From Oscillospiraceae bacterium (GTDB lineage: Bacteria; Bacillota; Clostridia; Oscillospirales; Oscillospiraceae): DNA of 44,159 nt. The notes beneath the pieces were generated by a model. It saw only the letters and a program-made list of their open reading frames with translations. It was not told the origin of the DNA and did not search any database. Numbering within the stretch: position 1 is the first letter of the stretch; each line of letters starts with the position of its first letter. The DNA is taken from positions 1 through 44,159 of the forward strand of contig JAFVVH010000026.1 of the NCBI GenBank assembly GCA_017502285.1. The letters are read 5' to 3'. A program made the translations under genes and the position numbers. Below are positions 19,266 through 36,779 of the stretch, one piece after another.

Positions 19266-19275
19266 GCGGAACACC

Positions 19276-21186: not shown

Positions 21187-21230
21187 AAACACACCTGAAA
21201 TCCGGGAGAAACGGGACTTTTTGATGACCA

Positions 21231-21244
21231 TGTAAAAATTTACA
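21231..21244 (-). promoter_or_regulatory. Palindromic operator candidate in the glg leader (cre-like without central CG)
   Basis: TGTAAA-AA-TTTACA, a perfect 6-bp inverted repeat between the glg promoter and glgB. The arms match a CcpA cre site, but the central CG is AA, so CcpA binding is only a guess. Confidence 0.35.
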
Positions 21245-21279
21245 AGATGGGCACAAAAACACGCTCCCAATTTATATAA

Positions 21280-21308
21280 ATTATACAACAGGGCTGGTCC
21301 GCCGTCAA
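21280..21308 (-). promoter_or_regulatory. Sigma-A promoter of the glgBCDA operon
   Basis: On minus: TTGACG (21308-21303), 17-nt spacer, TATAAT (21285-21280). Confidence 0.78.
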
Positions 21309-22525: not shown

Positions 22526-22622
22526 GGGCGGTTCCTCCAAACATTACATTCTGTGGACAGGATGTGGAGGAAAAAGTGGGGTTATTCCCGCGCGAAAAAA
22601 GTTTTTTGAAAAAATTTTTGCC

Positions 22623-22648
22623 AAAGTTGCACGCGAACGTGCAACTTT
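22623..22648. promoter_or_regulatory. Perfect 11-bp inverted repeat upstream of the phage-derived cluster
   Basis: AAAGTTGCACG-CGAA-CGTGCAACTTT in the 158-nt gap between dacF and the first phage gene, 36 nt before that start. It could be an operator, an attenuator (only a short CTTTTG tail) or a terminator. I found no sigma-A promoter for the cluster in this gap. Confidence 0.5.
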
Positions 22649-22683
22649 TGCCCTGATCCTACCATTAGTGTGAGGTGGAATTT

Positions 22684-23001
22684 ATGGGAAAACGATCGAT
22701 GCCTCCCAGCAGGGAAAAAATCTTGCAGCAGATGTGCGATATTGCACGGGTCCGGTTCAACGACGTGGTACGGCTGGCCTACCTGAGCGAGGAGCAGGCG
22801 GACCAGATCGACACGCTGGATCTGACCGCGCTGCGGGAGTTTAAACGAAGCTCCTCCGGTGCGGTGGAGATCAAGCTGACCGACCGGGTGGAGGTGCTGG
22901 AAAAGGTGATGCAACTGATGAGCGCGGGAGAGCTGCCGCAGGGAGAACAGTTTTTGCAGGCCTTTGTGGAGCAGGGGCAGAAGGGCGGCGCGGACGGTTG
23001 A
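22684..23001 (+). CDS. Putative phage terminase small subunit
   Basis: A 105-residue, mostly helical protein in the first position of the phage cluster, directly before the large terminase. Position and size suit a small terminase subunit, which binds DNA and starts packaging. The segment IDTLDLTALREFKRSSSGAVEIKL resembles proteins annotated that way in clostridial phages. I see no decisive DNA-binding motif. ATG 22684 has AGGTGG 6 nt upstream. Its stop overlaps the TTG start of the terminase large gene (TTGA), so the two should be coupled. Confidence 0.6.
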   Translation: MGKRSMPPSREKILQQMCDIARVRFNDVVRLAYLSEEQADQIDTLDLTALREFKRSSSGAVEIKLTDRVEVLEKVMQLMSAGELPQGEQFLQAFVEQGQKGGADG

Positions 23002-24257
23002 AGATCCGAAACTTCTCACCAAAGCAGAGACAGCTGCTGACCTGGTGGTGTGCCCCGGATACTCGCAGACACGACGCGGTGATCTGCGACGGAGCGGTGC
23101 GCAGCGGCAAGACGTTATGTATGGGACTTTCTTTTTTGTTTTGAGCCATGGCGTGCTTTCAATCTCAGGGGTTTGCCCTGTGCGGAAAGACCATACAGTC
23201 GGTGCGGCGCAATCTGCTGCGGGAGCAGCTGCCCCTGCTGCGGCAGCTGGGCTTTGAGTGTCGGGAGCAGATCTCCCGCAATCAGCTGACGGTGCGGCTG
23301 GGCGGCCGGGAGAACACATTTTACCTGTTTGGCGGAAAGGATGAGGGCAGCGCCGATCTCATTCAGGGATTGACGCTGGCCGGGGTGTTGCTGGACGAGG
23401 TGGTGCTGATGCCCCGCTCCTTTGTGGAACAGGCCTGCGCCCGCTGCTCTGTGGAGGGGGCCAAACTGTGGTTTTCCTGCAATCCGGAAGGGCCGGAGCA
23501 CTGGTTTTACCGGGAGTGGATCTGTTCGGTCCGGGAACGAAACGCCCTGTATCTCCACTTCACTATGGCGGACAATCCCTCCCTGTCCCCGCAGGTGCGC
23601 AGCCGGTACGAGAAGATGTTTCACGGAACCTTCTATCGCCGGTTCGTGCTGGGGGAGTGGGTGGCGCCGGAGGGGCTGGTGTACGACTTCTTCCGGGCGG
23701 CAGACTGTCCCGAGCCCCCCAAGGGAGAGATGGAGCAGTGGTGCATTTCCTGTGACTACGGGACCATCAATCCCGCATCCTTCGGCCTGTGGGGGCTGCG
23801 GGACGGAGTGTGGTACCGGGTGGCGGAGTACTACTATGATTCCCGCAAAGAGGGACGGCAGAAGACGGACCGGGAATATGCCCGGGCACTGGAACGGCTG
23901 GCCGGGGGGCGGGCCATTGACCGGGTGGTGGTGGATCCTTCGGCGGCCAGTTTTATCGAGGTGCTGCGGAGAGACGGCTGGAGGGTGGTCAGGGCGAAAA
24001 ATGACGTGTTGCCCGGTATTCACCTCACCGCCCGACTGCTGCAAAGCGGACAGCTGGTCATATGTGACAGCTGCCCGGATGCCATCCGGGAGTTTGGGCT
24101 GTACCGCTGGGAGGAGGATGCCGCCCGGGACCGGGTGAGGAAGCAAGACGATCATGCCATGGACGACATTCGGTATTTTGCCGCCACCGTGGCCGCGCCC
24201 CGGTCCCACGCGGTGCCGGTGTTTGCCGGCAGCGTATGCCGAAGCGGCAAAATGTAA
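22998..24257 (+). pseudogene. Phage terminase large subunit, interrupted by in-frame TGA at 23142-23144
   Basis: The packaging ATPase-nuclease reads as one frame of about 419 residues if the TGA is decoded. The N-terminal 48 residues start at TTG 22998 and contain FSPKQRQLLTWW and Walker A, CDGAVRSGKT at about 30-39. The frame then stops at TGA and continues at once as GCC ATG GCG TGC. The join would read SFLF-[TGA]-AMACFQSQGFALCGKT. From memory of the family, the position is usually tryptophan (TGG), so one G-to-A change explains it. Everything after is intact. It may be a nonsense mutation, a sequencing error or a read-through/restart arrangement. Confidence 0.8.
23148..24257 (+). CDS. Terminase large subunit, part after the TGA (Walker B and nuclease)
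   Basis: A 369-residue open frame beginning at ATG 23148, three bases after the TGA. It contains CGKTIQSVRRNLL, Walker B GVLLDEVVLMP, WFSCNPEGPEHWFYREWI and the RNase-H-like nuclease with ISCDYGTINPASFGLW, VVDPSAASFIEVLRRDGW and the late acidic DDHAMDDIRYF. No good SD precedes this ATG, so it could be made only by reinitiation after the TGA. Without the upstream 48 residues the product lacks Walker A and should not power packaging alone. Followed by the portal gene 16 nt later. Confidence 0.75.
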   Translation: MACFQSQGFALCGKTIQSVRRNLLREQLPLLRQLGFECREQISRNQLTVRLGGRENTFYLFGGKDEGSADLIQGLTLAGVLLDEVVLMPRSFVEQACARCSVEGAKLWFSCNPEGPEHWFYREWICSVRERNALYLHFTMADNPSLSPQVRSRYEKMFHGTFYRRFVLGEWVAPEGLVYDFFRAADCPEPPKGEMEQWCISCDYGTINPASFGLWGLRDGVWYRVAEYYYDSRKEGRQKTDREYARALERLAGGRAIDRVVVDPSAASFIEVLRRDGWRVVRAKNDVLPGIHLTARLLQSGQLVICDSCPDAIREFGLYRWEEDAARDRVRKQDDHAMDDIRYFAATVAAPRSHAVPVFAGSVCRSGKM

Positions 24258-24273
24258 AAAAGGAGCAACGCGG

Positions 24274-25416
24274 ATGAAGATTTTTCAAAAAAAGCGGCCT
24301 CAGGTACAGGGGGAGGCGGTACAGATCCGGAACACGGGGCGGCATCCCTTTGGGGCGCTGGACCGGTACGTGCCCCTGCAGGAGGGGGAAGGCCAGCTGT
24401 ACCGGGCCATTCGGGAGGCCCTGCCCATTGTGGATGCGGCCATCCTGAAGCTGATCCGCCTGTGCGGAGGGGTGAGTGTGGTGTGTGACGAGCCCCGGGC
24501 CCAGCAGGAGATGGACCGGTTTGTAAAAACCGTGCCCACCGGCAGAGGCCAGCGGGGGATCCAGTCCTTTCTGGACGGGTATCTGGACTGCATGCTCACC
24601 TGCGGCAGAGCGGTGGGTGAGATCGTACCCGACTGGCAGGGCCGGGACATCGCTGCCCTGCTGTGGTGTGACCCGGCGGCGGTGGAGATCCGGGAGGGAG
24701 ACACCCCGCTGGACTTTGTGCTGTGTCAGCGTTCGGTGGGTGAGCCCAAGGTCCTGCCCTGTCAGGAACTGCTGCTGTTTACCCCCTTCCAGCCGGAGGC
24801 CGGAAATCCCTACGGCGTGTCTCTGCTGCGGTCCATGCCCTTTATGGCGGAGATCCTGCTGAAGATTTATCAGGCCATTGGGCTGAACTGGGAGCGGGTG
24901 GGCAACGTGCGCTTTGCTGTGGTATGCAAAAACGGCGAAGGGGACGAGCTGTATGCAAAGGACCGCTGTGAGCAGGTGGCCCGGGAATGGAGCCGAGCCA
25001 TGCAGGCAGGCAGTCAGGGCGACGTGCGGGACTTCGTGGCCATGGGCGACGTGGACATCCGGGTCATCGGCGCGGACAATCAGGTGCTGGACAGCGAGGT
25101 GCCTGTGCGCCAGATTCTGGAACAGCTGATCGCCCGCACCGGCATCCCGCCCTTTATGCTGGGTTTGTCGTGGTCATCCACTGAGCGCATGAGCAGCCAG
25201 CAGGCTGACCTGATGACCAGCGAGATCACCGCCATTCGGCGTAGTCTGGAGCCGGTGGTGGAGCGGGTGTGCGAGACCTTTCTGCGGCTGCGGGGCTGGG
25301 GCGGCAGCGTGCAGGTGGAATGGGCGGACATCAACCTGCAGGATCAGGTGGAGGAGGCCCGGGCGGCCCTCTATCGCCAGCAGGCGGACAATCTGAAAGT
25401 GGAGGCAGAAGGATGA
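24274..25416 (+). CDS. Phage portal protein
   Basis: A 380-residue portal-like protein, the dodecameric ring through which DNA enters the capsid. Recognisable segments are LLLFTPFQPEAGNPYGVSLL followed by the helix with IYQAIGLNWERVGNVRF, and IARTGIPPFMLGLSWSSTERMSS then a long C-terminal helix. The pattern resembles the DUF935/Mu gp29-like or PBSX XkdE-like portals; I do not fix the exact family. ATG 24274 with AAAGGAG about 8 nt upstream. Its stop overlaps the next start (ATGA). Confidence 0.82.
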   Translation: MKIFQKKRPQVQGEAVQIRNTGRHPFGALDRYVPLQEGEGQLYRAIREALPIVDAAILKLIRLCGGVSVVCDEPRAQQEMDRFVKTVPTGRGQRGIQSFLDGYLDCMLTCGRAVGEIVPDWQGRDIAALLWCDPAAVEIREGDTPLDFVLCQRSVGEPKVLPCQELLLFTPFQPEAGNPYGVSLLRSMPFMAEILLKIYQAIGLNWERVGNVRFAVVCKNGEGDELYAKDRCEQVAREWSRAMQAGSQGDVRDFVAMGDVDIRVIGADNQVLDSEVPVRQILEQLIARTGIPPFMLGLSWSSTERMSSQQADLMTSEITAIRRSLEPVVERVCETFLRLRGWGGSVQVEWADINLQDQVEEARAALYRQQADNLKVEAEG

Positions 25417-26342
25417 ATGTGAACAAGCAGGCTCTGTGCGGCGGCGCTGCCGCGGTGGATGAGCAGGAACTGAAGCAGATCAACCGCTTCAGTCGCAAGG
25501 AGCTGACGGCGGACGAAGTGTATACCTTTGCCGTGCGGCTGTGTGACAATCAGGTGGACCGGGACGGGGAACGCTTTGAGCCGGAGACGCTGGACGGCCT
25601 TGCGGAGCTGTTCGTGGGCAAGACGGGTATCTTTGACCACAACTGGTCGGCCAAGGGACAGACTGCCCGCATTTACCGGACCGAGGTGGTGGATGAGCCC
25701 GGAGTGGTGACCGCGGCCGGTGACGGCTGTCGTTACATCAAGGGCTATGCCTATATGCTGCGCACCACAGGCAACGAGGAACTGATCGCTCAGTTGGACG
25801 GCGGCATCCTGCGGGAGGTCAGCGTGGGCTGCGCAGTGGCGCGCTGTGTGTGTTCCATCTGCGGTAAGCAGGCGGGTACTTGTACCCATAAGAAGGGTGA
25901 GCACTACGACGGCAAGCTGTGCTACACCAAGCTGGAGGGAGCGGTGGATGCCTTTGAGTGGTCCTTTGTGGCCGTGCCCGCCCAGCCCAAAGCTGGTGTG
26001 CTCAAGTCCAAGAGCAAAGGACAGGCGCTGTCCCTGAAGCAGCTGGCCCACAAGCACGACTGTCAGCATGAGTTGGAGCAGCTGGAAAAGGATGCTGTAC
26101 TGGGCAGACGGTATATGGCTGCTTTGCGCCGCGAGGTGGTGCGGCTGGCCGGTTTGAGCCGGGAGGATATGGACCACCGGGTGATGGAGAGCATCACCGA
26201 AAAACTGGAGGAATCGGAACTGCTGGAGCTGAAGCGTGTCTACGGTGGACAGGCGGCAAAGCGATTTCCTGTGATGACCCAGCTGGATCATCACCGTGAG
26301 GCTGCGGATGCCGTTGCCGCCGATGGGGCTTTTCTGATCTGA
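25413..26342 (+). CDS. Prohead protease-like protein with zinc-binding insertion (XkdF-like)
   Basis: A 309-residue protein in the protease position. The N-terminal domain has a candidate catalytic histidine in GIFDHNWS and serine in GGILREVSVGC, then EWSFVAVPAQPKAGV, typical of head-maturation serine proteases. Between the catalytic parts sits a cysteine/histidine patch, C145, C147, C150, C157 and H159, likely binding zinc. The C-terminal third is charged helix and could be the scaffold. ATG 25413 with GGAGG 7 nt upstream, overlapping the portal stop. Confidence 0.75.
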   Translation: MNVNKQALCGGAAAVDEQELKQINRFSRKELTADEVYTFAVRLCDNQVDRDGERFEPETLDGLAELFVGKTGIFDHNWSAKGQTARIYRTEVVDEPGVVTAAGDGCRYIKGYAYMLRTTGNEELIAQLDGGILREVSVGCAVARCVCSICGKQAGTCTHKKGEHYDGKLCYTKLEGAVDAFEWSFVAVPAQPKAGVLKSKSKGQALSLKQLAHKHDCQHELEQLEKDAVLGRRYMAALRREVVRLAGLSREDMDHRVMESITEKLEESELLELKRVYGGQAAKRFPVMTQLDHHREAADAVAADGAFLI

Positions 26343-26381
26343 GCAGCACCGAACTCATATTAAAAACAGGAGGAAAAACAC

Positions 26382-26720
26382 ATGAGCAAGATCTCTTTTG
26401 AGGACATTGGCAGCCTGATGGCCACCTTCTATGCCCACGATGGCGTGCAGGACGGTCAGGTGGTCAAGATGACCGGAAACGGCACCGTGGGTCCCTGCAG
26501 TGCGGGTGACATTTTCTGTGGTGTGGCCGGTATGCCCCGCAACGGCGCGGTGGGCGTGCAGGTGGGCGGCTTTGTGAAGGTGGCCGCTACCCTGCCTCTG
26601 AGTGTGGGTAAGGTCGGTCTGGTAGCCGACGGCAAGGGCGGTGTTAAGGCCGGCGATGGCATCAGCGTTCTGGTGGCCGATGTGGACACGGTGGAAAAGA
26701 CCGCCGTGATCTGTCTGTAA
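26382..26720 (+). CDS. Putative capsid decoration / cement protein
   Basis: A 112-residue glycine- and valine-rich beta protein (CGVAGMPRNGAVGVQVGGFVKV) directly before the major capsid gene. Size, composition and position fit a DUF2190-like head stabilisation protein. I see no motif that proves it. Strong SD AGGAGG before the ATG, which suggests high expression like the capsid gene. Confidence 0.6.
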   Translation: MSKISFEDIGSLMATFYAHDGVQDGQVVKMTGNGTVGPCSAGDIFCGVAGMPRNGAVGVQVGGFVKVAATLPLSVGKVGLVADGKGGVKAGDGISVLVADVDTVEKTAVICL

Positions 26721-26734
26721 GGAGGAAAAGGAAG

Positions 26735-27748
26735 ATGGCATATCAGTTTGACAATCTGAAGCTGGAAAAGGGCATGTACCATGAGGCGGGCAAGAGCTTT
26801 ACTCAGGTGCTGGAGAGCATGGACCCCGACCAGCAGTACAAGGGCACTGCGCTGGAGGGCCTGGATGCCTTTCAGCGCCAGCTCAAGCGCTTTGACATCA
26901 AGGTGAAGGGCGCGGGCAGCGATGTGGTGGAAAAGTTCTTCCGTACCGCCGACTCTGCTGTGCTGTTCCCTGAGTACATTGCCCGCAGCGTGCGTCAGGG
27001 CATGGAGGAGCAGAACCTGCTGCCCAACATCACTGCCGCCGTGACCCGATTTGACGGCATGGACTATCGCTCCATCACCGCCGAGGCCGGCGGTGAGGAC
27101 AAGAAGCTGCGCCATGTGGAGGAGGGCGCGGTCATCCCCAGCACCACGGTGAAGGTGCAGGACAATCTGGTCAAGCTCCACAAACGCGGCCGCATGCTGG
27201 TGGCTTCCTATGAGGCCATTCGCTATCAGAAGCTGGACCTGTTCTCCGTCACCCTGCGTCAGATCGGCGCGCACATCAACCGCATGCATCTGGAGGATGC
27301 CATTGAGGTGCTCATCAACGGCGACGGCAACGGCAATGCCGCCCAGGAGTATTCCGTGGCTTCCAACGGTGTGCTGACCTATGAGGATCTGGTGGATTTC
27401 TGGGCCAAGTTTGACCCCTATGAGATGAACACCCTGCTGGTGAGCAACGACATGATGGTCAAGATGCTCAAGCTGCCTGAGTTTCAGAATCCCATGACCG
27501 GCCTGAATTTCCAGGGCACCGGCAAGCTGACCACCCCTCTGGGCGCCACTCTGCTGCGCACCTCCGCGCTGCCTGAGGGCAAGATCATCGGTCTGGACCG
27601 CAATTACGCACTGGAGATGGTACAGGGCAGCGACGTGATGATCGAGTACGACAAGCTCATCGACCGCCAGCTGGAGCGCGCCGCCATCACCAGTATCAGT
27701 GGCTTTGCCAAGCTGTTTGGTGATGCGTCCAAGGTGCTGAGTGTGTGA
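26735..27748 (+). CDS. Phage major capsid protein
   Basis: A 337-residue protein with strong SD (AAGGAGG), in the capsid position between the decoration protein and the connectors. The features are those of an HK97-fold shell protein of the XkdG-like group: a charged N-terminal arm, then VLFPEYIARSVRQGMEEQNLLPNI, and a central EVLINGDGNGNA loop region. FQGTGKLTTPLGATLLRTSALPEGKIIGLDRNYALEM near the C-terminus is typical of such shells. Abundant structural protein by expectation. No N-terminal delta domain is obvious, so cleavage cannot be judged. Confidence 0.8.
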   Translation: MAYQFDNLKLEKGMYHEAGKSFTQVLESMDPDQQYKGTALEGLDAFQRQLKRFDIKVKGAGSDVVEKFFRTADSAVLFPEYIARSVRQGMEEQNLLPNITAAVTRFDGMDYRSITAEAGGEDKKLRHVEEGAVIPSTTVKVQDNLVKLHKRGRMLVASYEAIRYQKLDLFSVTLRQIGAHINRMHLEDAIEVLINGDGNGNAAQEYSVASNGVLTYEDLVDFWAKFDPYEMNTLLVSNDMMVKMLKLPEFQNPMTGLNFQGTGKLTTPLGATLLRTSALPEGKIIGLDRNYALEMVQGSDVMIEYDKLIDRQLERAAITSISGFAKLFGDASKVLSV

Positions 27749-28098
27749 TGACTGGACGCATCATGGAGCTGGCCCGCACGCTGGGGCAGGTAGCTCCTGA
27801 CGAGCAGGAGCTGCTGGCCACCCTGTGCGCAGCGGCGCAGCGGGAACTGGCCGGGCGGCTGCGTGAGGGGGTTGGGCCTGAGGACTGTCCGGAGGCCTTT
27901 GCGTTGGCCGGAGCATGGCTGGCTCTGTCCGGGCTGGAGGTGAGCCGGAGTGCAGGTCAGCCCCAGTCCTTTACCGCCGGTGACGTGACCGTGCACAGCG
28001 GCGGTGCCGGGGACAAGGCCAAACTGCTGCGAGAACAGGCCGAACGGATCATGTCCGGATGGACTAAGGACAATCATTTCCTGTTTTATGGAGTGTGA
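27748..28098 (+). CDS. Putative head-tail connector protein (XkdH position)
   Basis: A 116-residue, helical, acidic protein after the capsid gene. The pattern EQELLATLCAAAQRELAGRL, then EAFALAGAWLALSGLE, resembles gp6-like head-tail connectors. Function is inferred mainly from position. Its ATG overlaps the capsid stop (TGATG). A GTG one codon upstream is possible. Confidence 0.6.
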   Translation: MTGRIMELARTLGQVAPDEQELLATLCAAAQRELAGRLREGVGPEDCPEAFALAGAWLALSGLEVSRSAGQPQSFTAGDVTVHSGGAGDKAKLLREQAERIMSGWTKDNHFLFYGV

Positions 28099-28103
28099 GG
28101 GCA

Positions 28104-28439
28104 ATGATGGAACGGGAATTCACCCGCATTTTGGCCCGGTACGGGCAGAATGTGCGGGTATATGCAACCGGTGCGCCGGAGGGGAAAGCGCTGCGCGCCT
28201 TTTTTCAGCCTATGCGGGAGCGGGGGACGGAGCAGTCCGTCCCCTCCCCGCTGGGTCAGGTGAAGCAGGACCGCTTCCTTTATTTTGGACCGCCCGAACC
28301 GGCGCTGGACGAGGAAAGCCGGGTAGAAGTGGGCGGTGAGTGCTTTCGGGTGCGGGCGGCACAGCCCGTTTATGTGGGGCAGAGACTGTCCCACTGGTGG
28401 GCGGTACTCAGCCACAGGGCGCAGGAGGTGGTCGGATGA
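28104..28439 (+). CDS. Putative head-closure protein (XkdI position)
   Basis: A 111-residue beta-rich protein (FLYFGPPEPALDEESRVEVGGECFRVRAAQPVYVGQ). This is the layout of small head-tail joining proteins. Start is ATG 28104 or 28107, just after the upstream stop; a GTG at 28095 overlapping that stop is also possible. Stop overlaps the next ATG (ATGA). Assignment rests on size and place. Confidence 0.55.
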   Translation: MMEREFTRILARYGQNVRVYATGAPEGKALRAFFQPMRERGTEQSVPSPLGQVKQDRFLYFGPPEPALDEESRVEVGGECFRVRAAQPVYVGQRLSHWWAVLSHRAQEVVG

Positions 28440-28933
28440 AGCTGGAAGAACTGCAGGGCCAGCTGGCTGAGTTTCTGAATCAGCGGGGCATGCAGGCTAT
28501 GGCAAGCTGGCCTAAGGAGCGCAGACGGGATAAAGAGGGGCCGGTCATTCTGGTGTCGCTGGAGAGATTGGACTGCGGTCCGGCGGTGATGCAGGATTAT
28601 CTGGGGCAGGTGCTGGATGAAAAGACCGGCATGTGGCAGGAAATGTATGGACGCAGGGCCGCAATGACCTTTGCGCTGGATGTTTTGGCTGTGCCCGGTG
28701 TGGGGGCGCAGGCCTGCCGAACGGTTTTTGGGCAGATGATGCGGGCTTTTCAGCGGGAGAAGCCGGTGGGGCTCAGCGTTCGGGAACTGACCGGTCAGGA
28801 GCCGGAATACGACGAAAAGGAAGGATTGATCCGGCTGCGCTGCCATCTGGAATGTTCCGGCTGGCTATGCGCCGTGGGTGACGAGGCAGGTACCTTCCTT
28901 GACTTTGCTTTGAGAGGAGACGTGAACACATGA
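28436..28933 (+). CDS. Putative tail terminator / neck protein (XkdJ position)
   Basis: A 165-residue protein before the sheath gene, where contractile phages carry the tail completion protein. It has an alpha/beta pattern (EGPVILVSLERLDCGPAV, MTFALDVLAVPGVG, IRLRCHLECSGWL) but no motif I can name. ATGA overlaps on both sides show tight translational coupling. Confidence 0.55.
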   Translation: MKLEELQGQLAEFLNQRGMQAMASWPKERRRDKEGPVILVSLERLDCGPAVMQDYLGQVLDEKTGMWQEMYGRRAAMTFALDVLAVPGVGAQACRTVFGQMMRAFQREKPVGLSVRELTGQEPEYDEKEGLIRLRCHLECSGWLCAVGDEAGTFLDFALRGDVNT

Positions 28934-29991
28934 GCATCACAGTACATGAGCGGCCGGGGGTATATTCCTCCTATGCCGCCAGCGCGGCGGTGAGTACGGG
29001 CGCCGGTCGCAAAAACGTGGGTTTGGCGGTTTGGATGGAGAGTCCGGCCAAAAACATGTGGAATATCAGCCGCTATGAGGATGCGGTGGCAGCCTTTGGA
29101 GCGGAGCATGGTGACAATGCCACCGTACTGATTCGCCTGCTGCTGCAAAACGGCGCGGCGCAGGTAATGGTTTTCCCGGTGAAGGGAAGCGACCTGACCG
29201 ACTATCAGACGGCTTTTGAGATGATGGCGGGGACAGAAGACATATCTCTGGCGGTGTGCGACAGCACTGTGCTGGAGGTGCAGCAGGCGCTGCGGGACAG
29301 CATACACGCGGCATCCAATGCCCAGCGTGAGCGTATTGCTGTGGTGGCCGGCGGTGTGGACGAGGACGTGGCACAGCTGGTGGAGCGGGCCGGACGGCTG
29401 AACAGCGAGCGTGTGGTTCTGGTTGCGCCCGGCTGCGTGGACGGGCAGGAGCAGAGCCTGTCCGGCATCCAGCTTGCCGCGGCGGTGGCCGGTGCCATTG
29501 CCGGGCAGACCGATCCCGCCATCCCGCTGGGCGGCGCGCAGCTGACCGGACTGTACGGCCTTGCTTGCCGCTATGATGACAGCCAGATGGATGTATTGAT
29601 CCGTGGCGGTGTAACAGTGGCGGAGTCGGTTGGCGGTGTGGTGAGCGTGGTGCGCGGTGTGACCACCCGGACCACTACCGATGGCGCGGCGGACAGTACA
29701 TGGCGGGATCTTTCCGCCATCCTTGTGGTGGACGATGTGATCCCTGCCATCCGCAACGCGCTGAAAAGCCGTTTCCGCCGGGCCAAAAACACTGCTCAGA
29801 GCCGGGGGGCCATCCGATCGCAGGTGGTGCTGGAACTGGAGAACAAGCTGGCACGGGAGATCATCACCGGATATGAAAATGTGAGCGTCAGTGCCGACGG
29901 TGAGGAGCCTACCCGCTGTCTGGTGGACTTCTCCTTTACGGTGACTCACGGCATCAACCAGATCTGGCTGAGCGCCCATATTACGGTATAA
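28930..29991 (+). CDS. Contractile tail sheath protein (XkdK-like)
   Basis: A 353-residue sheath subunit that would surround the tail tube and drive contraction. The N-terminus begins ERPGVYSSYAASAAVSTGAGRKNVGLAV. The domain DDSQMDVLIRGGVTVAESVGGVVSVVRGVTT, then LVVDDVIPAIRNALKSRF and the final IWLSAHITV, match the sheath fold. It is shorter than many phage sheaths, so it may lack a surface domain. ATG overlaps the previous stop. Confidence 0.85.
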   Translation: MSITVHERPGVYSSYAASAAVSTGAGRKNVGLAVWMESPAKNMWNISRYEDAVAAFGAEHGDNATVLIRLLLQNGAAQVMVFPVKGSDLTDYQTAFEMMAGTEDISLAVCDSTVLEVQQALRDSIHAASNAQRERIAVVAGGVDEDVAQLVERAGRLNSERVVLVAPGCVDGQEQSLSGIQLAAAVAGAIAGQTDPAIPLGGAQLTGLYGLACRYDDSQMDVLIRGGVTVAESVGGVVSVVRGVTTRTTTDGAADSTWRDLSAILVVDDVIPAIRNALKSRFRRAKNTAQSRGAIRSQVVLELENKLAREIITGYENVSVSADGEEPTRCLVDFSFTVTHGINQIWLSAHITV

Positions 29992-30003
29992 GGAGGGAAG
30001 GAC

Positions 30004-30393
30004 ATGACGATCACAGGATTTCCTACCAGCAGTGATATTTACCTTGAGGTAAACGGGAAAAAGGTGGCGGTGGTGCAGAGCTACAGCGCCAAAGCCACCA
30101 AGACCAGCACCAGCGTGGAGGCATTTGGAGAGAAAGAGCCGGTGGTTACGGTGGCGGGGCCCATAAAGCATCAGCTGGAGCTGTCCCGCCTGTACGCTAC
30201 CGATGAGGCCATTCAGGACGGCATCGATTTCTATTCTCTGGAGGACTTTTCGCTGGTCATCTGCAAGCCTGATCGGCGCATTATCTACGCCCACTGTCAG
30301 TGGAGCAATATCAGCGAAGAAGCCGGCCTGGGCGATATGGTGCTGGAAAAGGTATCGGTGGTGGCCTCCCGACGGATCGAGACGGGGGTGTAA
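30004..30393 (+). CDS. Tail tube (core) protein, XkdM-like
   Basis: A 129-residue beta protein forming the inner tube hexamers. Pattern DIYLEVNGKKVAVVQSYSAKA, VTVAGPIKHQLELSRLYATDEA, DFSLVICKPDRRIIYAHCQWSNI, LEKVSVVASRRIE is typical of XkdM/Mu tube proteins. Strong SD AAGGAGGG. Its position right after the sheath is the standard order. Confidence 0.85.
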   Translation: MTITGFPTSSDIYLEVNGKKVAVVQSYSAKATKTSTSVEAFGEKEPVVTVAGPIKHQLELSRLYATDEAIQDGIDFYSLEDFSLVICKPDRRIIYAHCQWSNISEEAGLGDMVLEKVSVVASRRIETGV

Positions 30394-30396
30394 CCG

Positions 30397-30819
30397 ATGC
30401 AGACGAGCCTTTTAAGTGGGCCCGACCGGTTGGAACTGGAGGATGGCCGCACGCTGCGGCTGCTCAGCGCCATGGAGGTGCTGGAGGCTCGGCGCGAAGC
30501 TGATTGGCTTACACAGGGCGCGCGGGAGCGCGCCCTGTGCTCCAATGCCTGCCTGCTGGCCCGGGCGCTGATGAAAGACGGTCAGCGTTTGTTTCGGGAC
30601 GGAAGCCACGTGCTGGAGGAGCTTACGGTGGAAGAAATCGGTGCGCTGGCCGGGCAGTGGTCCCGGTTCAATCAGCAGGTCAATCCCGGGCCGCAGGCCG
30701 GGGAGGAACGGGTGGAAGAACTAAAAAACGTCTGGAGCACGCCCGGGAGGAGCGGCTGTACTGGCGCGTGCTGCGATCCTTTTCAGCCCTGCCCACGGAG
30801 GATTGTGTCCGAACGATGA
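30397..30819 (+). CDS. Tail assembly chaperone, zero-frame product (XkdN-like)
   Basis: A 140-residue protein in the position of the lambda-gpG-like assembly chaperone. The helical N-terminal domain (RTLRLLSAMEVLEARREADWL, ACLLARALMKDGQRLF, VEEIGALAGQWSRFNQQ) fits XkdN. Beyond the slippery site the zero-frame runs on for about 29 residues rich in cysteine and proline (CTGACCDPFQPCP) and stops at 30819. SD is weak (GGGGGTG). Confidence 0.75.
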   Translation: MQTSLLSGPDRLELEDGRTLRLLSAMEVLEARREADWLTQGARERALCSNACLLARALMKDGQRLFRDGSHVLEELTVEEIGALAGQWSRFNQQVNPGPQAGEERVEELKNVWSTPGRSGCTGACCDPFQPCPRRIVSER

Positions 30820-31025
30820 AGGACCGGGACTTTCTGTGGTGCGCGTTAAATTTGATGCTGGATGATGAACAGGAACTGGATGGATTGTGTCCCACCTGCC
30901 GTGACCGGGCCATGGAGGAACGGTGCGCCGGATGCGGAGCGCTTCTTTGCATGACAGAAGGCAATCGGAACGGCAGCTTCGACGAGAGCCGGTTTCAACG
31001 ACTGAAGCGGGGTGAGAGCACATGA
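30397..31025 (+). CDS. Tail assembly chaperone, predicted -1 frameshift fusion with C-terminal zinc ribbon
   Basis: A -1 shift at A AAA AAC (30723-30729) fuses the first 109-111 codons to a downstream frame ending at 31025, giving about 209 residues. The added part is coherent: a charged helix (KKRLEHAREERLYWRVL), then helices and a CxxC-x8-CxxC ribbon with cysteines at about 165, 168, 177 and 180. This frame has no SD-preceded start of its own. Its stop overlaps the next ATG (ATGA), as at most joints in this cluster, which argues that ribosomes do reach it. It is the G/GT arrangement of many phages. Confidence 0.75.
30723..30772 (+). promoter_or_regulatory. Programmed -1 frameshift site: slippery heptamer and downstream stem
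   Basis: A AAA AAC at 30723-30729 is a standard X XXY YYZ heptamer in the correct phase (codons CTA AAA AAC). Six nt later the stem AGCACGC (30736-30742) / GCGTGCT (30766-30772) can form with a 23-nt loop. Confidence 0.72.
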
Positions 31026-31507
31026 CGGACTATCTGGAAGAATTGCTGGAGCAGCAGGCAAGCGACGAGGAAGGCGGAACGCTGGATTGGCGCAAGGGAA
31101 GCCTGCACCTGTGGGATCGGCAGGCGTGGGAACAGATTGCTGCCGGTGGAGCGATACGCTCACAGGAACAGAATGTGGATAATGCAGTGACGTACCGGCA
31201 GAACTTGCCCGGGCAGGGTAATATGCAAACCTTGGTCCAAGCGGCGGCGGAAGCGGTCTGGCACAAGCGGGCCGAGCAGCTGCCGCTGGTGGGACAGATG
31301 GCCCGGCTGCACCGGGCGGTGCAGCAGGTGCGGGAACACGGCGGCAGCGGGAATACGGCTGTGCAGTCGGTCATGCAGCCGGGAATGGCAGATGTGCGAC
31401 ACGGCGGCGCACTGTCCGTGCGCAGGACGGCGGACTATGCCGCTGCTGTGGATGCGGCCTTTCAGCGGGATGCAAGACGGTATGATGGGCCGCTGGGCCT
31501 GCTGTGA
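31022..31507 (+). CDS. Protein of unknown function in the tape-measure position
   Basis: A 161-residue protein lying where the tape-measure gene (XkdO) is expected. It has an acidic N-terminus (DYLEELLEQQASDEE), then WRKGSLHLWDRQAWEQI, a long helix (LVGQMARLHRAVQQVREHG) and a C-terminal segment ADYAAAVDAAFQRDARRYDG. There are no membrane segments. I do not recognise the family. It may be a very short tape measure, a chaperone partner or a remnant. ATG overlaps the upstream -1-frame stop; SD GGGTGAGAG. Confidence 0.65.
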   Translation: MTDYLEELLEQQASDEEGGTLDWRKGSLHLWDRQAWEQIAAGGAIRSQEQNVDNAVTYRQNLPGQGNMQTLVQAAAEAVWHKRAEQLPLVGQMARLHRAVQQVREHGGSGNTAVQSVMQPGMADVRHGGALSVRRTADYAAAVDAAFQRDARRYDGPLGLL

Positions 31508-31526
31508 CAAGAAAGGGTGAGAGCAA

Positions 31527-32090
31527 ATGGAATTGACACCCATGCGATATAAAAACTATGTCTGGCCCCACAACCCCAGAGTTTATACCATCGAATATGA
31601 ACGGGTTATGGTGGAAAACAAGGTGCCCTATGGCCTGTACCATTTGCAGGATCTGGGACGCACTCGAAGGGTCATGCGTGGTGAGGGCGAATTTGTCGGG
31701 CCGGAGGCGTATGCCCAGTTTGGTGCACTGGCCAATACATTTTATGATCCGGGAGCGGGCGAACTGATCCATCCTCTGTGGCAGACGGCCAGAGCCCATT
31801 TCGTGGAACTGTCCCTCAAGCAGGAGCCCAGACCGGACTATGTGAGCTATACCTTTGCCTTTTGGGAGGACCTGGGGTATTACGATGCCCAACTGGGGAC
31901 GGAGGGTGAACAGAAGGCTGAGGGCGAGCAGTTTACAGCTGAGCAGCTGACCCACAGTGTAGTCAAGGGAGATACGCTGTGGTCCATTGCAAAAAAGTAC
32001 AGCACTACGCTGGAAAAGATCCTGCAACTCAATCCTCAGATCAAAAATCCCAGTCTGATCCGGGTGGGACAGGAGGTGCGTGTGCGGTGA
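31527..32090 (+). CDS. LysM-domain baseplate/hub protein (XkdP-like)
   Basis: A 187-residue protein. The N-terminal 130 residues (NYVWPHNPRVYTIEYER and following) form the XkdP/DNA-circulation-like domain. The C-terminal LysM domain, about 142-187 (HSVVKGDTLWSIAKKYSTTLEKILQLNP in two parts), may bind peptidoglycan or seat the hub. SD GGGTGAGAG before ATG. The stop overlaps the GTG of the next gene. Confidence 0.82.
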   Translation: MELTPMRYKNYVWPHNPRVYTIEYERVMVENKVPYGLYHLQDLGRTRRVMRGEGEFVGPEAYAQFGALANTFYDPGAGELIHPLWQTARAHFVELSLKQEPRPDYVSYTFAFWEDLGYYDAQLGTEGEQKAEGEQFTAEQLTHSVVKGDTLWSIAKKYSTTLEKILQLNPQIKNPSLIRVGQEVRVR

Positions 32091-33040
32091 CGGCCTATTT
32101 GATGACCGGTGACGGCACGCGCTATGAGATGCCGGAATTGCTGGAGTGGGAGTTGGACTATGGCTGCGGTACACCCTGCGACAGCTTTCGGGTGGTGAGC
32201 CTGTGGAATTGTGCGGATGACGCGGCACTGGCGGATGTGATACGCTTTGCGGCCTTTCAGGGGCAGGAGCAGGTGTTTGCCGGGGTGGTGGACGAGTGTC
32301 AGGCCACGTGGTCGGCACAGGGCTGCCGGCTGGAGGTGAGCGGTCGGGGCATGGCTGCCCTGCTGCTGGACAACGAAGCGCAGGGGCTGGACTATGCGGT
32401 TGCCACCCTGGAAGATATTTTGAAAGACCACGTACTGCCCTATGGTATTCAGGTGGCAGAGCAGGAGCAGCTGCCGGCGGTGGAACGGTTTTCCATTGAC
32501 TACGGCAGCAGCGAGTGGGCGGTGCTGTATGAGTTTGCCTGTTATCACGGGGGTGTGACACCTCGCTTTGACCGGCAGGGACGACTCGTTCTGGCCCGTT
32601 GGCAGGATGAGCAGCCCAAAATGATCCATGACCGAGTACCGGTAACGGGGTTGAGCGTCCGGGACAGGCGGTATGGGGTGCTGTCCGAGATCTGGGTGCG
32701 GGAGGCGGGAAAGCTGCCGGAACTGCACAAGGTGGTCAATGATCGGTTCAAAGACGCAGGCGGACAGTGCCGACGCATGTATACCATGCCCAGCAAGAGC
32801 AACTATCAGGCTATGCGCTATCAGGGCCAGTATCAGCTGGACAAGTCGGCGGCGGAGCAACTGCGGCTGGAGGTGGATATCGCCCTGCCCTTCTGCGCAT
32901 GGCCCGGGGAGTTGGTGCGGCTGGAGCGTACCGGCTGGGGACGCAACGGGCTGTACCGGGTGGCGCAGGCCACGGTAAGCATGGACAGTGCGGGGTATAG
33001 CACCCGGCTGGAACTGGTGCGGCCAGACACCCTGCTGTGA
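32087..33040 (+). CDS. Baseplate hub protein (XkdQ / gpD-like)
   Basis: A 317-residue hub protein. Features: YEMPELLEWELDYGCGTPCDSFRV, FAGVVDECQATWSAQGCRLEVSGRGMAALLLDNE, and a later domain ending QATVSMDSAGYSTRLELVRPD, typical of the gp27/gpD-like hub. GTG 32087 overlaps the previous stop (GTGA) with AGGAGGTG about 9 nt upstream, preferred over any upstream start inside the LysM gene. Confidence 0.82.
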   Translation: MTAYLMTGDGTRYEMPELLEWELDYGCGTPCDSFRVVSLWNCADDAALADVIRFAAFQGQEQVFAGVVDECQATWSAQGCRLEVSGRGMAALLLDNEAQGLDYAVATLEDILKDHVLPYGIQVAEQEQLPAVERFSIDYGSSEWAVLYEFACYHGGVTPRFDRQGRLVLARWQDEQPKMIHDRVPVTGLSVRDRRYGVLSEIWVREAGKLPELHKVVNDRFKDAGGQCRRMYTMPSKSNYQAMRYQGQYQLDKSAAEQLRLEVDIALPFCAWPGELVRLERTGWGRNGLYRVAQATVSMDSAGYSTRLELVRPDTLL

Positions 33041-33050
33041 GGTGAGTGAA

Positions 33051-33458
33051 ATGTGGGTATCCAAACAGACGAAGAAAAGTAAGGACAATTCCGGCAGTGC
33101 CCGAGTGGGGGTTGTGACTGCCGGAGGACAGGAGAGCGGCGTGTATCTGGGCACCCAGCGGTGCTGGCTGCCGGTCATGGCCCCCGGGGGTTATCGCTGG
33201 CGGCCCGGGACCGGGGAGCAGGTGCTGGTGCTGAAAACGGGGGTGGATGGCGAGTCTGCCTGCGTGCTGGCCCGGCAGGAGGAGCCGGGCGAGGAACTGC
33301 AGCCCGGGGAAGTGGAAGTGTATGCGCCAAACTGCAGGGTAAGGCTGACCTGGGATGGGCGTGTGGATGTGCGCGGCAAGGTGTATGTAAACGGAACAGC
33401 GCTGGAGGACATGGTCAGTCAGGTGGTGGCAGCCGCGCTGGCCGGACAGGAGGGATAA
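33051..33458 (+). CDS. Baseplate/spike-associated OB-fold protein (XkdR / gpV-like)
   Basis: A 135-residue beta protein (ARVGVVTAGGQESGVYLGTQ, PGTGEQVLVLKTG, VRLTWDGRVDVRGKVYVNGTALEDM) in the XkdR/gpV position. It probably forms or carries the membrane-piercing spike. No metal-binding tip motif is evident. ATG 33051 with GAGGTGA upstream. Confidence 0.65.
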   Translation: MWVSKQTKKSKDNSGSARVGVVTAGGQESGVYLGTQRCWLPVMAPGGYRWRPGTGEQVLVLKTGVDGESACVLARQEEPGEELQPGEVEVYAPNCRVRLTWDGRVDVRGKVYVNGTALEDMVSQVVAAALAGQEG

Positions 33459-33459
33459 C

Positions 33460-33828
33460 ATGATAGAGCAGCAATGGAACGACGGAGATCTGATCCCCAA
33501 CGGAGCAGGCGGATTTTGCCATTTGGAGGGTAGCCGGGCGCTGGTGCAGCGGGTGCTGTTTAAGCTGACCGCCCGGAGAGGAAGCTTTCCCTTCCTGCCC
33601 GGACTGGGCAGTCGGCTGCACACATTGGGAAGGGAGAAGCCCAGTGCCCGCCCCGCCCTGTGCGCTCAGTATGTGCGTGAGGCGCTGGAGGACGAGGACG
33701 TGACCGTAACGGATGTTATCTACGATGACCTGGGCGGGCAGGCCCGGGTAAAGGTGTACCTGCAGTGGAAGGGGCAGGAGCTGGAGGTCACCACTCAGAT
33801 TGGAGGAATTTCGGATGAAAACGGTTGA
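33460..33828 (+). CDS. Baseplate wedge protein, gp25/XkdS-like
   Basis: A 122-residue protein with the gp25-like pattern: LVQRVLFKLTARRGSFPFLPGLGSRL, then YVREALEDEDVTVTDVIYDD and VYLQWKGQELEVT. Gp25/W proteins initiate sheath assembly on the baseplate. The start is 2 nt after the upstream stop; its end overlaps the J gene by 14 nt. Confidence 0.82.
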   Translation: MIEQQWNDGDLIPNGAGGFCHLEGSRALVQRVLFKLTARRGSFPFLPGLGSRLHTLGREKPSARPALCAQYVREALEDEDVTVTDVIYDDLGGQARVKVYLQWKGQELEVTTQIGGISDENG

Positions 33829-34861
33829 GGAGCTTTATTCGGATATGCTGACCGATTTTACCGCCCGCACCGGGATGGAGATCGCGGGGGGTGGTGACCT
33901 GTCTGCCCGCCTGTATGCCGCGGCGGCGCAGATCTATGGACTGTATGTGCAGGCGGACTGGGTCAACCGTCAGTGTTTTCCCCAGACGGCTCAGGGAGAG
34001 TATCTGGACCACCATGCCCAGCTGAGAGCGCTGGAACGCAAGGCGGCATCCCGCGCGCAGGGGACGGTGCGTTTCTATGGAGATGCAGCCAGTACAGTGG
34101 ACCGGGAAATTCCTGTGGGTACGGTCTGTATGACCCCGGGACTGGTTCGGTTCGCCACGACCTGGGACGGTGTGCTGGGTGCGGGCAAGAGCCATGTGGA
34201 CATCCCCGTGCAGGCGGTGGAGCCGGGGACCGCCGGCAACGTGATCGCGGGCAGTGTGCGCGTTCTGTCTGCCGCACCGGTAGGCATTACCGGCTGCACC
34301 AATCCTGAGGCTATGTCCGGCGGCGCGGACGCAGAGGGGGACGAGCAGCTGCGCAAGCGCATTCTGGATAGCTTTCTGCGCCTGCCCAACGGCGCGAACA
34401 GTGCCTTTTACGAGCAGGGTGCGCTGTCCTTTGACGAGGTGGTATCCGCGGTGGCGCTGCCCCGAAACCGGGGTGTGGGCACGGTGGACGTGGTGGTGGC
34501 TACCCGGCAGGGAGTACCGGATGGGGAACTGCTGAATCGGCTGAATGAATACTTCCGGGAGCGCAGAGAGATCGCAGTAGACGTGCAGGCCTGTGCGCCG
34601 CAGACGGTGAAGGTAAACGTTGCCGTCGGTGTCAAAAGCGCGGATATGACGCAGACAACAGCACGGGTGGAACAGGCGCTGCGGGAGTGGTTTACCGGTC
34701 AGCGCTTGGGTGAAGATGTGCTGCGTGCCAAGCTGGGCAGTATCGTATTTGCCGTGGATGGGGTGGAGAACTACGCCCTGAGCCAGCCTGCGGCGGATGT
34801 GGCGGTGGAAAAAGGCCGGCTGCCGGTGCTGGGTACGGTGACGGTGGAGGAAATGACATGA
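33815..34861 (+). CDS. Baseplate J-like wedge protein (XkdT)
   Basis: A 348-residue baseplate J family protein, linking sheath and baseplate periphery. Landmarks: NRQCFPQTAQGEYLDHHAQL, GTVRFYGDA, IPVQAVEPGTAGNVIAGSVRVL, the LPNGANSAFYEQGALS segment and PRNRGVGTVDVVVA. It is the usual length for XkdT. ATG 33815 with GGAGG 7 nt upstream, inside the previous gene. Confidence 0.9.
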   Translation: MKTVEELYSDMLTDFTARTGMEIAGGGDLSARLYAAAAQIYGLYVQADWVNRQCFPQTAQGEYLDHHAQLRALERKAASRAQGTVRFYGDAASTVDREIPVGTVCMTPGLVRFATTWDGVLGAGKSHVDIPVQAVEPGTAGNVIAGSVRVLSAAPVGITGCTNPEAMSGGADAEGDEQLRKRILDSFLRLPNGANSAFYEQGALSFDEVVSAVALPRNRGVGTVDVVVATRQGVPDGELLNRLNEYFRERREIAVDVQACAPQTVKVNVAVGVKSADMTQTTARVEQALREWFTGQRLGEDVLRAKLGSIVFAVDGVENYALSQPAADVAVEKGRLPVLGTVTVEEMT

Positions 34862-35424
34862 GCAACGCAGGCTATCTGAAAGAACTGCTGCGGCCACTGG
34901 GAGTCTATAAGCTAGAGGAGTCCTTTTTGGGTGCGGAACTGGACAGTCTAGGAAAAGCGTTGGATGGACTGCAGGAGCAGCTGGAGCAGGTGCAGCGGGA
35001 GATGTGTCTGGCCACGGCCCGGGATGAGGGGGTGGAGCGCATGGCGGCACTATTTTCCTGCAGACCCGTGACGCAAGATGTACAGCAGATGGCCGCTTCG
35101 CTGGCGGCGCTGGCCCGCATCGGCGGGGACAGCTTTACCCTCAAGGCCATCAACAGCACCATTGCGGGCTGCGGGCTCAATGCCAAGGTGTCGGAAGGGG
35201 ATGAGCCGGGTGTTGTTATGGTGCGCTTTCCCGATGTGGCCGGTGTTCCCGCGGGGTTTGAGCAGATGCGTGCCATCATTGAGGACATTCTGCCGGCCCA
35301 TCTGTTGGTGCAGTATCTGTTCTGGTATCAGACCTGGGGGGAACTCAATGACCGCGGGCTGACCTGGCAGGGCATTCACAACCAGAATCTGACTTGGGAA
35401 GCCTTTGAAACATTGGTAGAGTAA
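34858..35424 (+). CDS. Baseplate protein XkdU / gpI-like (DUF2313)
   Basis: A 188-residue protein. MSNAGYLKELLRPLGVYKLEESFLG begins a helix bundle; FEQMRAIIEDILPAHLLVQYLFWYQTWGEL is the DUF2313 hallmark. It ends with GLTWQGIHNQNLTWEAFETL, a repeat-like tail. In phages this protein is the attachment point for the fibre encoded next, but here a terminator follows at once. ATG overlaps the J stop. Confidence 0.85.
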   Translation: MSNAGYLKELLRPLGVYKLEESFLGAELDSLGKALDGLQEQLEQVQREMCLATARDEGVERMAALFSCRPVTQDVQQMAASLAALARIGGDSFTLKAINSTIAGCGLNAKVSEGDEPGVVMVRFPDVAGVPAGFEQMRAIIEDILPAHLLVQYLFWYQTWGELNDRGLTWQGIHNQNLTWEAFETLVE

Positions 35425-35425
35425 G

Positions 35426-35466
35426 AAAAAGCGTGTCCGGACGGAGTTGTCCGGACACGCTTTTTT
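35426..35466. terminator. Bidirectional terminator closing the phage cluster and hemW
   Basis: A-run, GCGTGTCCGG (35431-35440), 10-nt loop, CCGGACACGC (35451-35460), then six T. The T-run overlaps the hemW stop codon. Confidence 0.88.
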
Positions 35467-36670: not shown

Positions 36671-36698
36671 TGCCGACCCTCCCTTAACAGGTGGGTCT

Positions 36699-36727
36699 AT
36701 TATATCGAAAAAGCGGTGAAATTGCAA
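36699..36727 (-). promoter_or_regulatory. Sigma-A promoter of hemW
   Basis: On minus: TTGCAA (36727-36722), 17-nt spacer, TATAAT (36704-36699). The -35 is palindromic and is also the -35 of the plus-strand promoter. Confidence 0.75.
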
Positions 36728-36750
36728 AACCAATTCTTCGGGTGTATAAT
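36722..36750 (+). promoter_or_regulatory. Sigma-A promoter of the RluA-family gene
   Basis: TTGCAA (36722-36727), 17-nt spacer, TATAAT (36745-36750). It shares the whole -35 hexamer with the hemW promoter. Confidence 0.75.
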
Positions 36751-36779
36751 CAGAAAAAATGTGTCTGGGGGGTGGTTGC

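Follow-up and report, generated by a model that had tools for sequence, protein, structure and literature searches.

Gene content of the particle cluster

The window analysed here, a 44,159-nt stretch that makes up one contig (C21) of an Oscillospiraceae genome of 1.49 Mb (83 contigs, 78% complete), carries on its plus strand a cluster of phage head, contractile-tail and baseplate genes at 22684-35424. Open reading frame (ORF) calls and searches of Pfam and PHROGs gave 20 genes, running from terS to a gp48-like baseplate gene (Table 1). An earlier note on this DNA had counted 19 and had most joints overlapping; 11 of the 19 joints do. The genes of the Bacillus subtilis element PBSX run from terminase to baseplate, and the families assigned here by Pfam and PHROGs fit its terminase-portal-capsid-sheath-tube-baseplate order, a comparison with the PBSX order as commonly known and not a direct alignment.

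The earlier note had described a cluster stripped of the genes of an independent phage, and this proved correct. None of the 20 proteins matched an integration, repressor, replication, fibre, holin or endolysin family, the LysM domain alone being common to endolysin profiles, and no direct repeat of at least 16 nt within 21400-37000 flanks the cluster on both sides as att repeats would. The integrase, att repeats, regulator and patchy distribution of an active or recent prophage were thus not found for this cluster.

Table 1. Features of the particle cluster, with coordinates in the window
Feature	Position	Strand	Evidence or remark
Promoter-like directional motif, partial dyad, 5' of terS	22623-22649	+	recurs before two more loci in the same genome
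terS, small terminase	22684-23001	+	Terminase_2, slightly below Pfam cut-off
terL, large terminase, in-frame TGA after Walker A	22998-24257	+	Pfam, PHROGs
Portal	24274-25416	+	Pfam; phrog_30703, E 2.5e-161
XkdF-like head protein	25413-26342	+	position; phrog_16951 (no function assigned)
Decoration-like head virion protein	26382-26720	+	phrog_4588
Major capsid protein	26735-27748	+	Pfam, PHROGs
Three genes in head-tail connector position (XkdH-, XkdI-, XkdJ-like)	27745-28933	+	position; third only: phrog_25177, a functionless PHROG
Tail sheath	28930-29991	+	Pfam, PHROGs
Tube-like tail protein	30004-30393	+	position; phrog_27038 (functionless), weak phrog_985
XkdN-like gene	30397-30819	+	position, conservation
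69-aa gene overlapping the XkdN-like gene	30816-31025	+	position, conservation
161-aa gene in the tape-measure slot	31022-31507	+	ORF calls
LysM/XkdP-like protein	31527-32090	+	Pfam, PHROGs
gp44/XkdQ-like baseplate hub	32087-33040	+	Pfam, PHROGs
Small spike-like baseplate protein	33051-33458	+	phrog_25991 (functionless); role from position
gp46-like baseplate protein	33460-33828	+	Pfam, PHROGs
Baseplate_J	33815-34861	+	Pfam, PHROGs
gp48/DUF2313-like baseplate protein	34858-35424	+	Pfam, PHROGs

Distribution, descent and selection

A search of the genus detected the capsid gene in 58 of 64 genomes, 26 of the 31 near-complete ones among them, with only a fragment in G017. In wider samples it was present in 89 of 250 genomes at family level, spread over 49 of the 106 genera sampled; in 71 of 394 at order level, from 42 of 168 genera; and in 11 of 391 at class level, of which eight belong to the same order, the window's included, and three are distant matches. 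Named relatives among the 80 of 491 matches listed were Flavonifractor, Pseudoflavonifractor, Intestinimonas, Lawsonibacter, Flintibacter and Oscillibacter. Cultured strains with the cluster in their genomes include Flavonifractor sp. An100, Pseudoflavonifractor capillosus An827 and Flintibacter muris DSM 110149. Nearly all positive genomes hold a single copy. The few exceptions are a real second copy in G591, a further copy truncated at a contig end in G022, split pieces in G165 and G660, and a weak extra match in G298.

Forty loci were fetched for comparison, 20 from the 57 other positive genomes of the genus and 20 from the 85 positive genomes of other genera. The genes found follow one common order in all 40, and sheath and tube are present in 39 (L095 lacks both). 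The head and packaging module is conserved across these loci, with terL, portal and capsid among the best conserved genes. The dacF-side flank is common to all 20 genus loci and the hemW side to five, so that the dacF-hemW interval was seen solely in the window and five close relatives. From the 50 positive genomes of other families of the order a further 20 loci (L362-L381, three of them shorter than 20 kb) were fetched; portal and capsid were found in all 20, terL in 19, Baseplate_J in 11, tube in six and sheath in five. In nine of these loci the capsid and XkdP genes start 1.7-2.7 kb apart, versus 4.8 kb in the window. Given the sparse sheath and tube genes and this short spacing, the tail seems to have been reduced stepwise across the order, perhaps towards the tailless type of FpGTA, the gene transfer agent (GTA) of Faecalibacterium prausnitzii, with the qualification that divergent genes can escape such a search.

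Relatives also occur in the IMG/VR virus catalogue, from which 80 of 281 were kept (L382-L461), on contigs of 4-19 kb plus one of 55 kb. The two of these loci whose genes were listed (L398, L420) hold little besides the host operon. Virus catalogues that carry a host operon are a possible annotation trap.

The genes of the cluster are intact in nearly every relative. The search recovered 729 of 760 possible gene instances, 725 of them with at least 80% of the length of the window gene; one of the four shorter ones is cut by a contig end. The ratio of non-synonymous to synonymous substitution rates (dN/dS) was calculated for ten species pairs, non-independent because some sequences are used in more than one pair. 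With two saturated values excluded, the 189 values for cluster genes have a median of 0.17 and a maximum of 0.58, and 172 are at most 0.35; the median is unchanged for the 133 values with dS below 1. The flanking genes dacF and hemW gave 15 values of 0.06-0.24. A tree of seven cluster proteins agrees with the rpoB tree for the same 26 genomes, with a Mantel r of 0.94 that none of 2000 permutations reached. The two trees have 12 of 23 bipartitions in common, versus a mean of 0.27 and a maximum of 2 in 500 label shuffles, and of the ten strongly supported rpoB bipartitions seven also occur in the cluster tree while three conflict.

The cluster is host-chromosomal, vertically inherited and under purifying selection, as a GTA is, and appears domesticated. 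The earlier note had proposed domestication and had named an empty dacF-hemW site in near relatives, together with relaxed selection or many inactivations, as what would speak against it. Neither relaxed selection nor many inactivations were found, and domestication is supported by how common the cluster is in the genus, by its vertical descent and by the purifying selection on it.

In the window itself terL contains an in-frame TGA at 23142-23144, directly after the Walker A motif, which the earlier reading overlooked. A full-length terL frame is present in 38 of the 40 fetched relatives, the exceptions being cut by a contig end (L078) or shortened at the C terminus (L088). Among the 80 loci fetched from viral contigs, 18 of the 23 examined cover the stop position and all 18 are open there. 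The sole viral contig of the same species (L382, 98% nucleotide identity) begins downstream of the stop position. Thus no relative examined that covers the position has the stop. The stop may be a mutation, a polymorphism or an assembly error.

Three sister species (G014, G015 and G012; loci L058, L060 and L061) cleanly lack terS. In these species terL begins at the former terS start, and the upstream motif described below is kept directly before terL. The clean loss of terS with retention of motif and terL suggests that sequence choice at packaging is dispensable there.

No gene of tape-measure size was found in the cluster, a point that the earlier note also missed; the rest of the genome was not searched for one. 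The slot where a tape measure would be expected holds a 161-aa gene in the window, and in the 39 relatives measured the longest slot ORF is 128-270 aa, so a long tape measure in the slot was rejected. Tail length scales with the number of tape-measure residues. If the 161-aa protein serves as the ruler, the tail would be very short.

A shared upstream motif and the genes behind it

Upstream of terS lies the motif TTGCACG-N4-CGTGCAA followed by a run of T; its right half and the T-run are the parts best kept in relatives. Upstream stretches of 31 of the 40 fetched loci score at least 13 bits, and in 27 of these 31 the scored segment ends 25-31 nt before the start codon. An exact 14-mer occurs at 35 sites in 28 of the 64 genus genomes versus none for the backward control, and a 22-mer with up to three mismatches at 47 sites in 16 of 24 genomes versus two in the control.

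By downstream gene, the 47 sites divide into particle operon (14), fibre-like family (9), effector-immunity loci (8, two of which, L157 and L225, look broken), gene A of a lysis operon (1), a lysis cassette in G002 (1), DUF6291 (1), resolvase (1) and other or unclear (12). Particle operon, fibre-like, lysis and effector-immunity genes thus account for 33 of the 47. In the window's genome all three sites fit, lying before terS, before a fibre-like gene, and before a gene for a MuF-like/barnase fusion with its barstar. The shared motif links the operon with lysis genes, fibre-like genes and toxin-immunity genes at scattered loci, which suggests common regulation.

The possibility that the motif acts as an RNA hairpin or terminator was set aside by eye, because pairing is not conserved, many species keeping only the right half and T-run, whereas position and strand are. 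Rfam gave no match in the window. In place of a conserved -10 region, a weak C-rich and TATT-like trend was seen 3' of the motif. At L155 (G012) a serine resolvase/invertase gene stands directly 3' of the motif, a possible fibre-gene switch, and an orthologous motif site in G006 and G030 (L205, L221) has no convincing gene directly behind it.

The fibre-like family is recognized by the signature NHTxNYxLSQWExxD; the member under the motif in the window's genome is a 174-aa gene on contig C36. A protein profile of the family matched all 19 cluster-positive genomes, with 1-9 copies each, versus one of five cluster-negative genomes, and Pfam has no family for these proteins. Their C-terminal part is variable, from which we infer that they are receptor-binding proteins. 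The motif scored above all 100 shuffles at 16 of 30 fibre-like loci, or at 8 of 22 after the eight loci found through the motif were dropped. Fibre-like genes under the motif adjoin long S-layer-type genes at L166, L167 and L168 (G019) and at L209 (G007), and an SLH domain was confirmed in both of those tested (L166, L209). This adjacency is a possible hint at the receptor.

The third motif site of the window's genome, on contig C62, precedes a gene for a 200-aa protein in which a MuF-like cysteine lobe is fused to barnase. The barnase part matches PDB barnase at E 3e-31, and the lobe matches the head-morphogenesis family phrog_4728 at E 8e-7. Overlapping the end of this gene is a barstar gene (Pfam E 3.5e-21, PDB E 5.5e-12); on these matches barnase-barstar is the one certain toxin-immunity pair. 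A similar lobe occurs in G013, G029 and G260 as a fusion with DUF6883, which passed the Pfam cut-off in two of three tested. Each such fusion is followed by a gene of 97-102 aa that has no significant Pfam match and is presumably an immunity gene. G013 also has two paralogous 568-aa proteins behind the motif (L213, L215), each followed by a putative immunity gene of 155 aa; the one scanned has a weak peptidoglycan-binding match. The fusion gene of the window's genome lies on a different contig than terL and portal rather than inside a packaging module, and by eye no phage gene was apparent among the ORFs listed around L154 and L216.

A lysis operon was found in G019, consisting of gene A and genes for a small protein, an LRR/DUF285 protein, Phage_holin_4_1 and Amidase_2. 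Gene A is present in 19 of the 64 genus genomes, and the motif scored above all shuffles at 11 of 23 gene A loci, or at 8 of 20 after three loci found through the motif were dropped. As controls for the fibre-like and gene A loci, 0 of 50 segments from rpoB loci and 1 of 40 taken at random from cluster loci carried the motif, and 1 of 24 in an earlier control. At amidase loci it scored above all 20 shuffles within at most 1.6 kb upstream in 10 of 30, six of these with at least 19.8 bits. The amidase is not a clean marker for the system, since 49 of the 64 genus genomes have it at E <=1e-30 and weaker relatives occur in capsid-negative genomes too. The suggestion in the earlier note that lysis and control genes may sit elsewhere, as for the Rhodobacter GTA, fits what was found: fibre-like and toxin-immunity genes are dispersed, and so are lysis genes in several species. 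The lysis genes were not found in the window's clade.

Proposed working and rival explanations

A tamed phage operon with a dispersed regulon suggests a particle that delivers toxins, DNA or both to neighbouring bacteria. We lean towards a domesticated, co-controlled particle of the PBSX type, probably a weapon that packages DNA and carries toxins. The alternatives offered by the earlier note, a GTA-like packager or a contractile killing particle, fit what was found.

Such a particle might work as follows. A putative regulator or sigma factor would read the shared motif and switch the dispersed loci on together, so that heads, a very short contractile tail, fibre-like proteins and effectors are co-produced, along with holin and endolysin in several species. 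TerL would pack the heads, most likely with unselected host DNA as in PBSX and FpGTA (PMC12946183), while small effectors with a MuF-like lobe (barnase in the window's genome) would probably be loaded via the portal and carried in the head. A subset of cells would lyse and free the particles. The fibre-like proteins would select targets among related bacteria, possibly by their S-layer; the sheath would contract, and the toxin, perhaps with DNA, would enter the target. The immunity gene beside each effector would protect kin.

Several observations weigh against this reading. The capsid is missing from 5 of the 31 near-complete genus genomes, terL is interrupted in the window's own cluster, and the absence of a long tape measure leaves tail assembly without explanation. 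The trees cover 26 of 30 genomes, and the four without an rpoB match include the window's own. No motif above the shuffles was found at 14 of the 22 fibre-like loci and 12 of the 20 gene A loci found by protein alone, and behind 14 of the 47 motif sites the genes are of another kind or hard to classify. Searches for gene A and the amidase found neither in the window's clade (G000, G012-G016). The MuF-like lobe of the barnase fusion is short, and its match to Pfam Phage_Mu_F (E 0.043) falls below the cut-off. Particle formation, DNA packaging, toxin loading and delivery are predictions made from the genes.

The stop in terL and the genomes lacking the capsid are what would be expected if the cluster were a cryptic or recently dying prophage, common by chance. 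We consider this very improbable, because the cluster is prevalent, its frames are intact in 725 of 729 instances, dN/dS is low and its tree is congruent with that of rpoB; the dacF-side flank common to all 20 fetched genus loci also speaks against it. Another explanation accepts a domesticated particle and takes the motif to be a general stress or lysis promoter, with the toxin-immunity and fibre-like genes standing outside the particle. The 12 sites before unrelated or unclear genes, the two before DUF6291 and resolvase, the many fibre-like loci without a detectable motif and the putative status of the regulator would all fit. However, the fibre-like genes track the cluster (19 of 19 versus 1 of 5), the effector lobe matches phage head-morphogenesis profiles, and the motif is enriched in independently found families, so this explanation seems improbable to us.

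A stronger rival is a true GTA, which would transduce random host DNA to relatives, the toxin-immunity genes being co-signalled for some other reason such as the policing of non-kin recipients. The strong conservation of terL, portal and capsid favours it, as do the three sister species that keep motif and terL without terS, expected if packaging needs no sequence choice. The splitting of genes over loci without replication genes is also GTA-like, co-control being judged here by the shared motif rather than by measured regulation. Reported GTA-like packaging in Ruminococcaceae and Oscillospiraceae and the two-locus layout of FpGTA (PMC12946183) point the same way, and so do two GenBank faecal records, described below, that hold cluster relatives within chromosomal DNA. 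Against it, a barnase-barstar pair is among the linked effectors; PBSX, an analogue that has been studied more closely, is stated to package DNA and not to inject it (PMC12946183); and the faecal records may be contamination, their tie to a study of DNase-treated viromes being a suggestion of ours. On balance we regard a true GTA as a serious but unlikely account.

Returning to the toxin-carrying particle, a bolder form of that reading makes it a family-wide, vertically inherited particle that is both a DNA packager and a modular weapon. One promoter motif would drive the operon for a head with an ultra-short contractile tail, scattered and swappable receptor-binding genes (some beside S-layer genes) and chromosomal MuF-type toxin-immunity cassettes whose products are loaded into the heads, and the cluster would be the source of the host-DNA particles reported for Oscillospiraceae. 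We put this forward tentatively, as somewhat less likely than not. On this reading bacteria would have taken over MuF toxins from phages for their own arsenal, and should the toxins indeed be cargo, much of a gut-bacterial family is armed with a conserved particle of phage origin. Within the system, the co-controlled toxin-immunity cassettes stand out as most unusual and are also the least proven.

Relation to known systems

RcGTA of Rhodobacter is inherited vertically; its fibre and lysis genes lie apart from the structural cluster but are controlled together with it, its tail is non-contractile, and no toxin-immunity pairs are known from its regulon. The present system is like it in having a vertically inherited structural cluster, fibre-like and lysis genes elsewhere, and a common motif, and differs in its unrelated lineage, contractile tail and toxin-immunity pairs under the motif. 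R-type tailocins are headless, whereas this cluster conserves a head and packaging module. PBSX holds a long tape measure, fibre, lysis and repressor genes in a single locus. The likeness to PBSX lies in a gene order that fits the commonly known one, in the head with contractile tail, and in a structural stretch without self-propagation genes. The difference is that long tape measure, fibre and lysis genes were not found in the cluster, the fibre-like, lysis and effector genes being dispersed under one motif. PBSX is reported to fill its heads with random host DNA of 13.4 kb, to function as a tailocin and not to inject the DNA (PMC12946183).

FpGTA is described as pairing a conserved structural operon with another locus that carries the fibre and lysis genes, without replication genes; FpGTA I spans 10.5 kb and ten ORFs, and its capsids measure about 40 nm and show no identifiable tails (PMC12946183). 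Compared by description, the present system shares with it an Oscillospirales host, a conserved structural operon, and fibre and lysis genes at separate loci, and differs in retaining sheath, tube and a full baseplate. FpGTA is thus the nearest precedent within the order, and PBSX, by its commonly known gene order, the nearest in anatomy. MuF polymorphic toxins are reported exclusively from temperate phages and prophages, mostly beside portal or terminase, and are proposed to ride in the head (Jamet et al. 2017, PMC5576092). The effectors found here resemble them in a C-terminal toxin, in a downstream immunity gene (putative apart from barstar) and in a MuF-like cysteine lobe, which is partial and below the Pfam cut-off; they differ in being stand-alone chromosomal genes under a particle motif, with a much shortened lobe.

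In 2026, packaging of host DNA was reported for faecal particles from Ruminococcaceae and Oscillospiraceae, including GTA-like packaging in Onthomonas (Oscillospiraceae). Among the metagenome-assembled genomes searched in that work, one from F. prausnitzii alone gave an operon candidate (PMC12946183). The cluster is a candidate for this Oscillospiraceae packaging reported without a gene cluster, and it lies in culturable genera (Flavonifractor, Pseudoflavonifractor, Flintibacter and Oscillibacter). With the motif yielding a list of co-signalled genes, gene transfer versus warfare in gut commensals becomes directly testable. No description of the cluster was found among the literature matches listed, in a search outside which subscription papers and preprints lay.

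Ten phage records match the capsid, and five of these are 'Bacteriophage sp.' from human faeces, at 52-70% identity. The two of the five that were opened (MT835769.1 and MT835508.1; L499 and L500) each hold a relative of the cluster amid chromosomal DNA, with thymidylate synthase and dihydrofolate reductase genes in one and rpoA, secY and Rnf genes in the other. They resemble the scaffolds of DNase-treated viromes in PMC8361208 and may derive from such material, although contamination or vesicles would look alike.

On either side of the cluster the window holds core genes, as the earlier note had stated: glgC, glgB and a D-Ala-D-Ala carboxypeptidase gene upstream, and hemW, an RluA-type synthase gene and a glycogen phosphorylase gene downstream. 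The cluster sits inside a glycogen-metabolism neighbourhood, with glgC and glgB at 18054-21288 and the glycogen phosphorylase side at 37771-40188.

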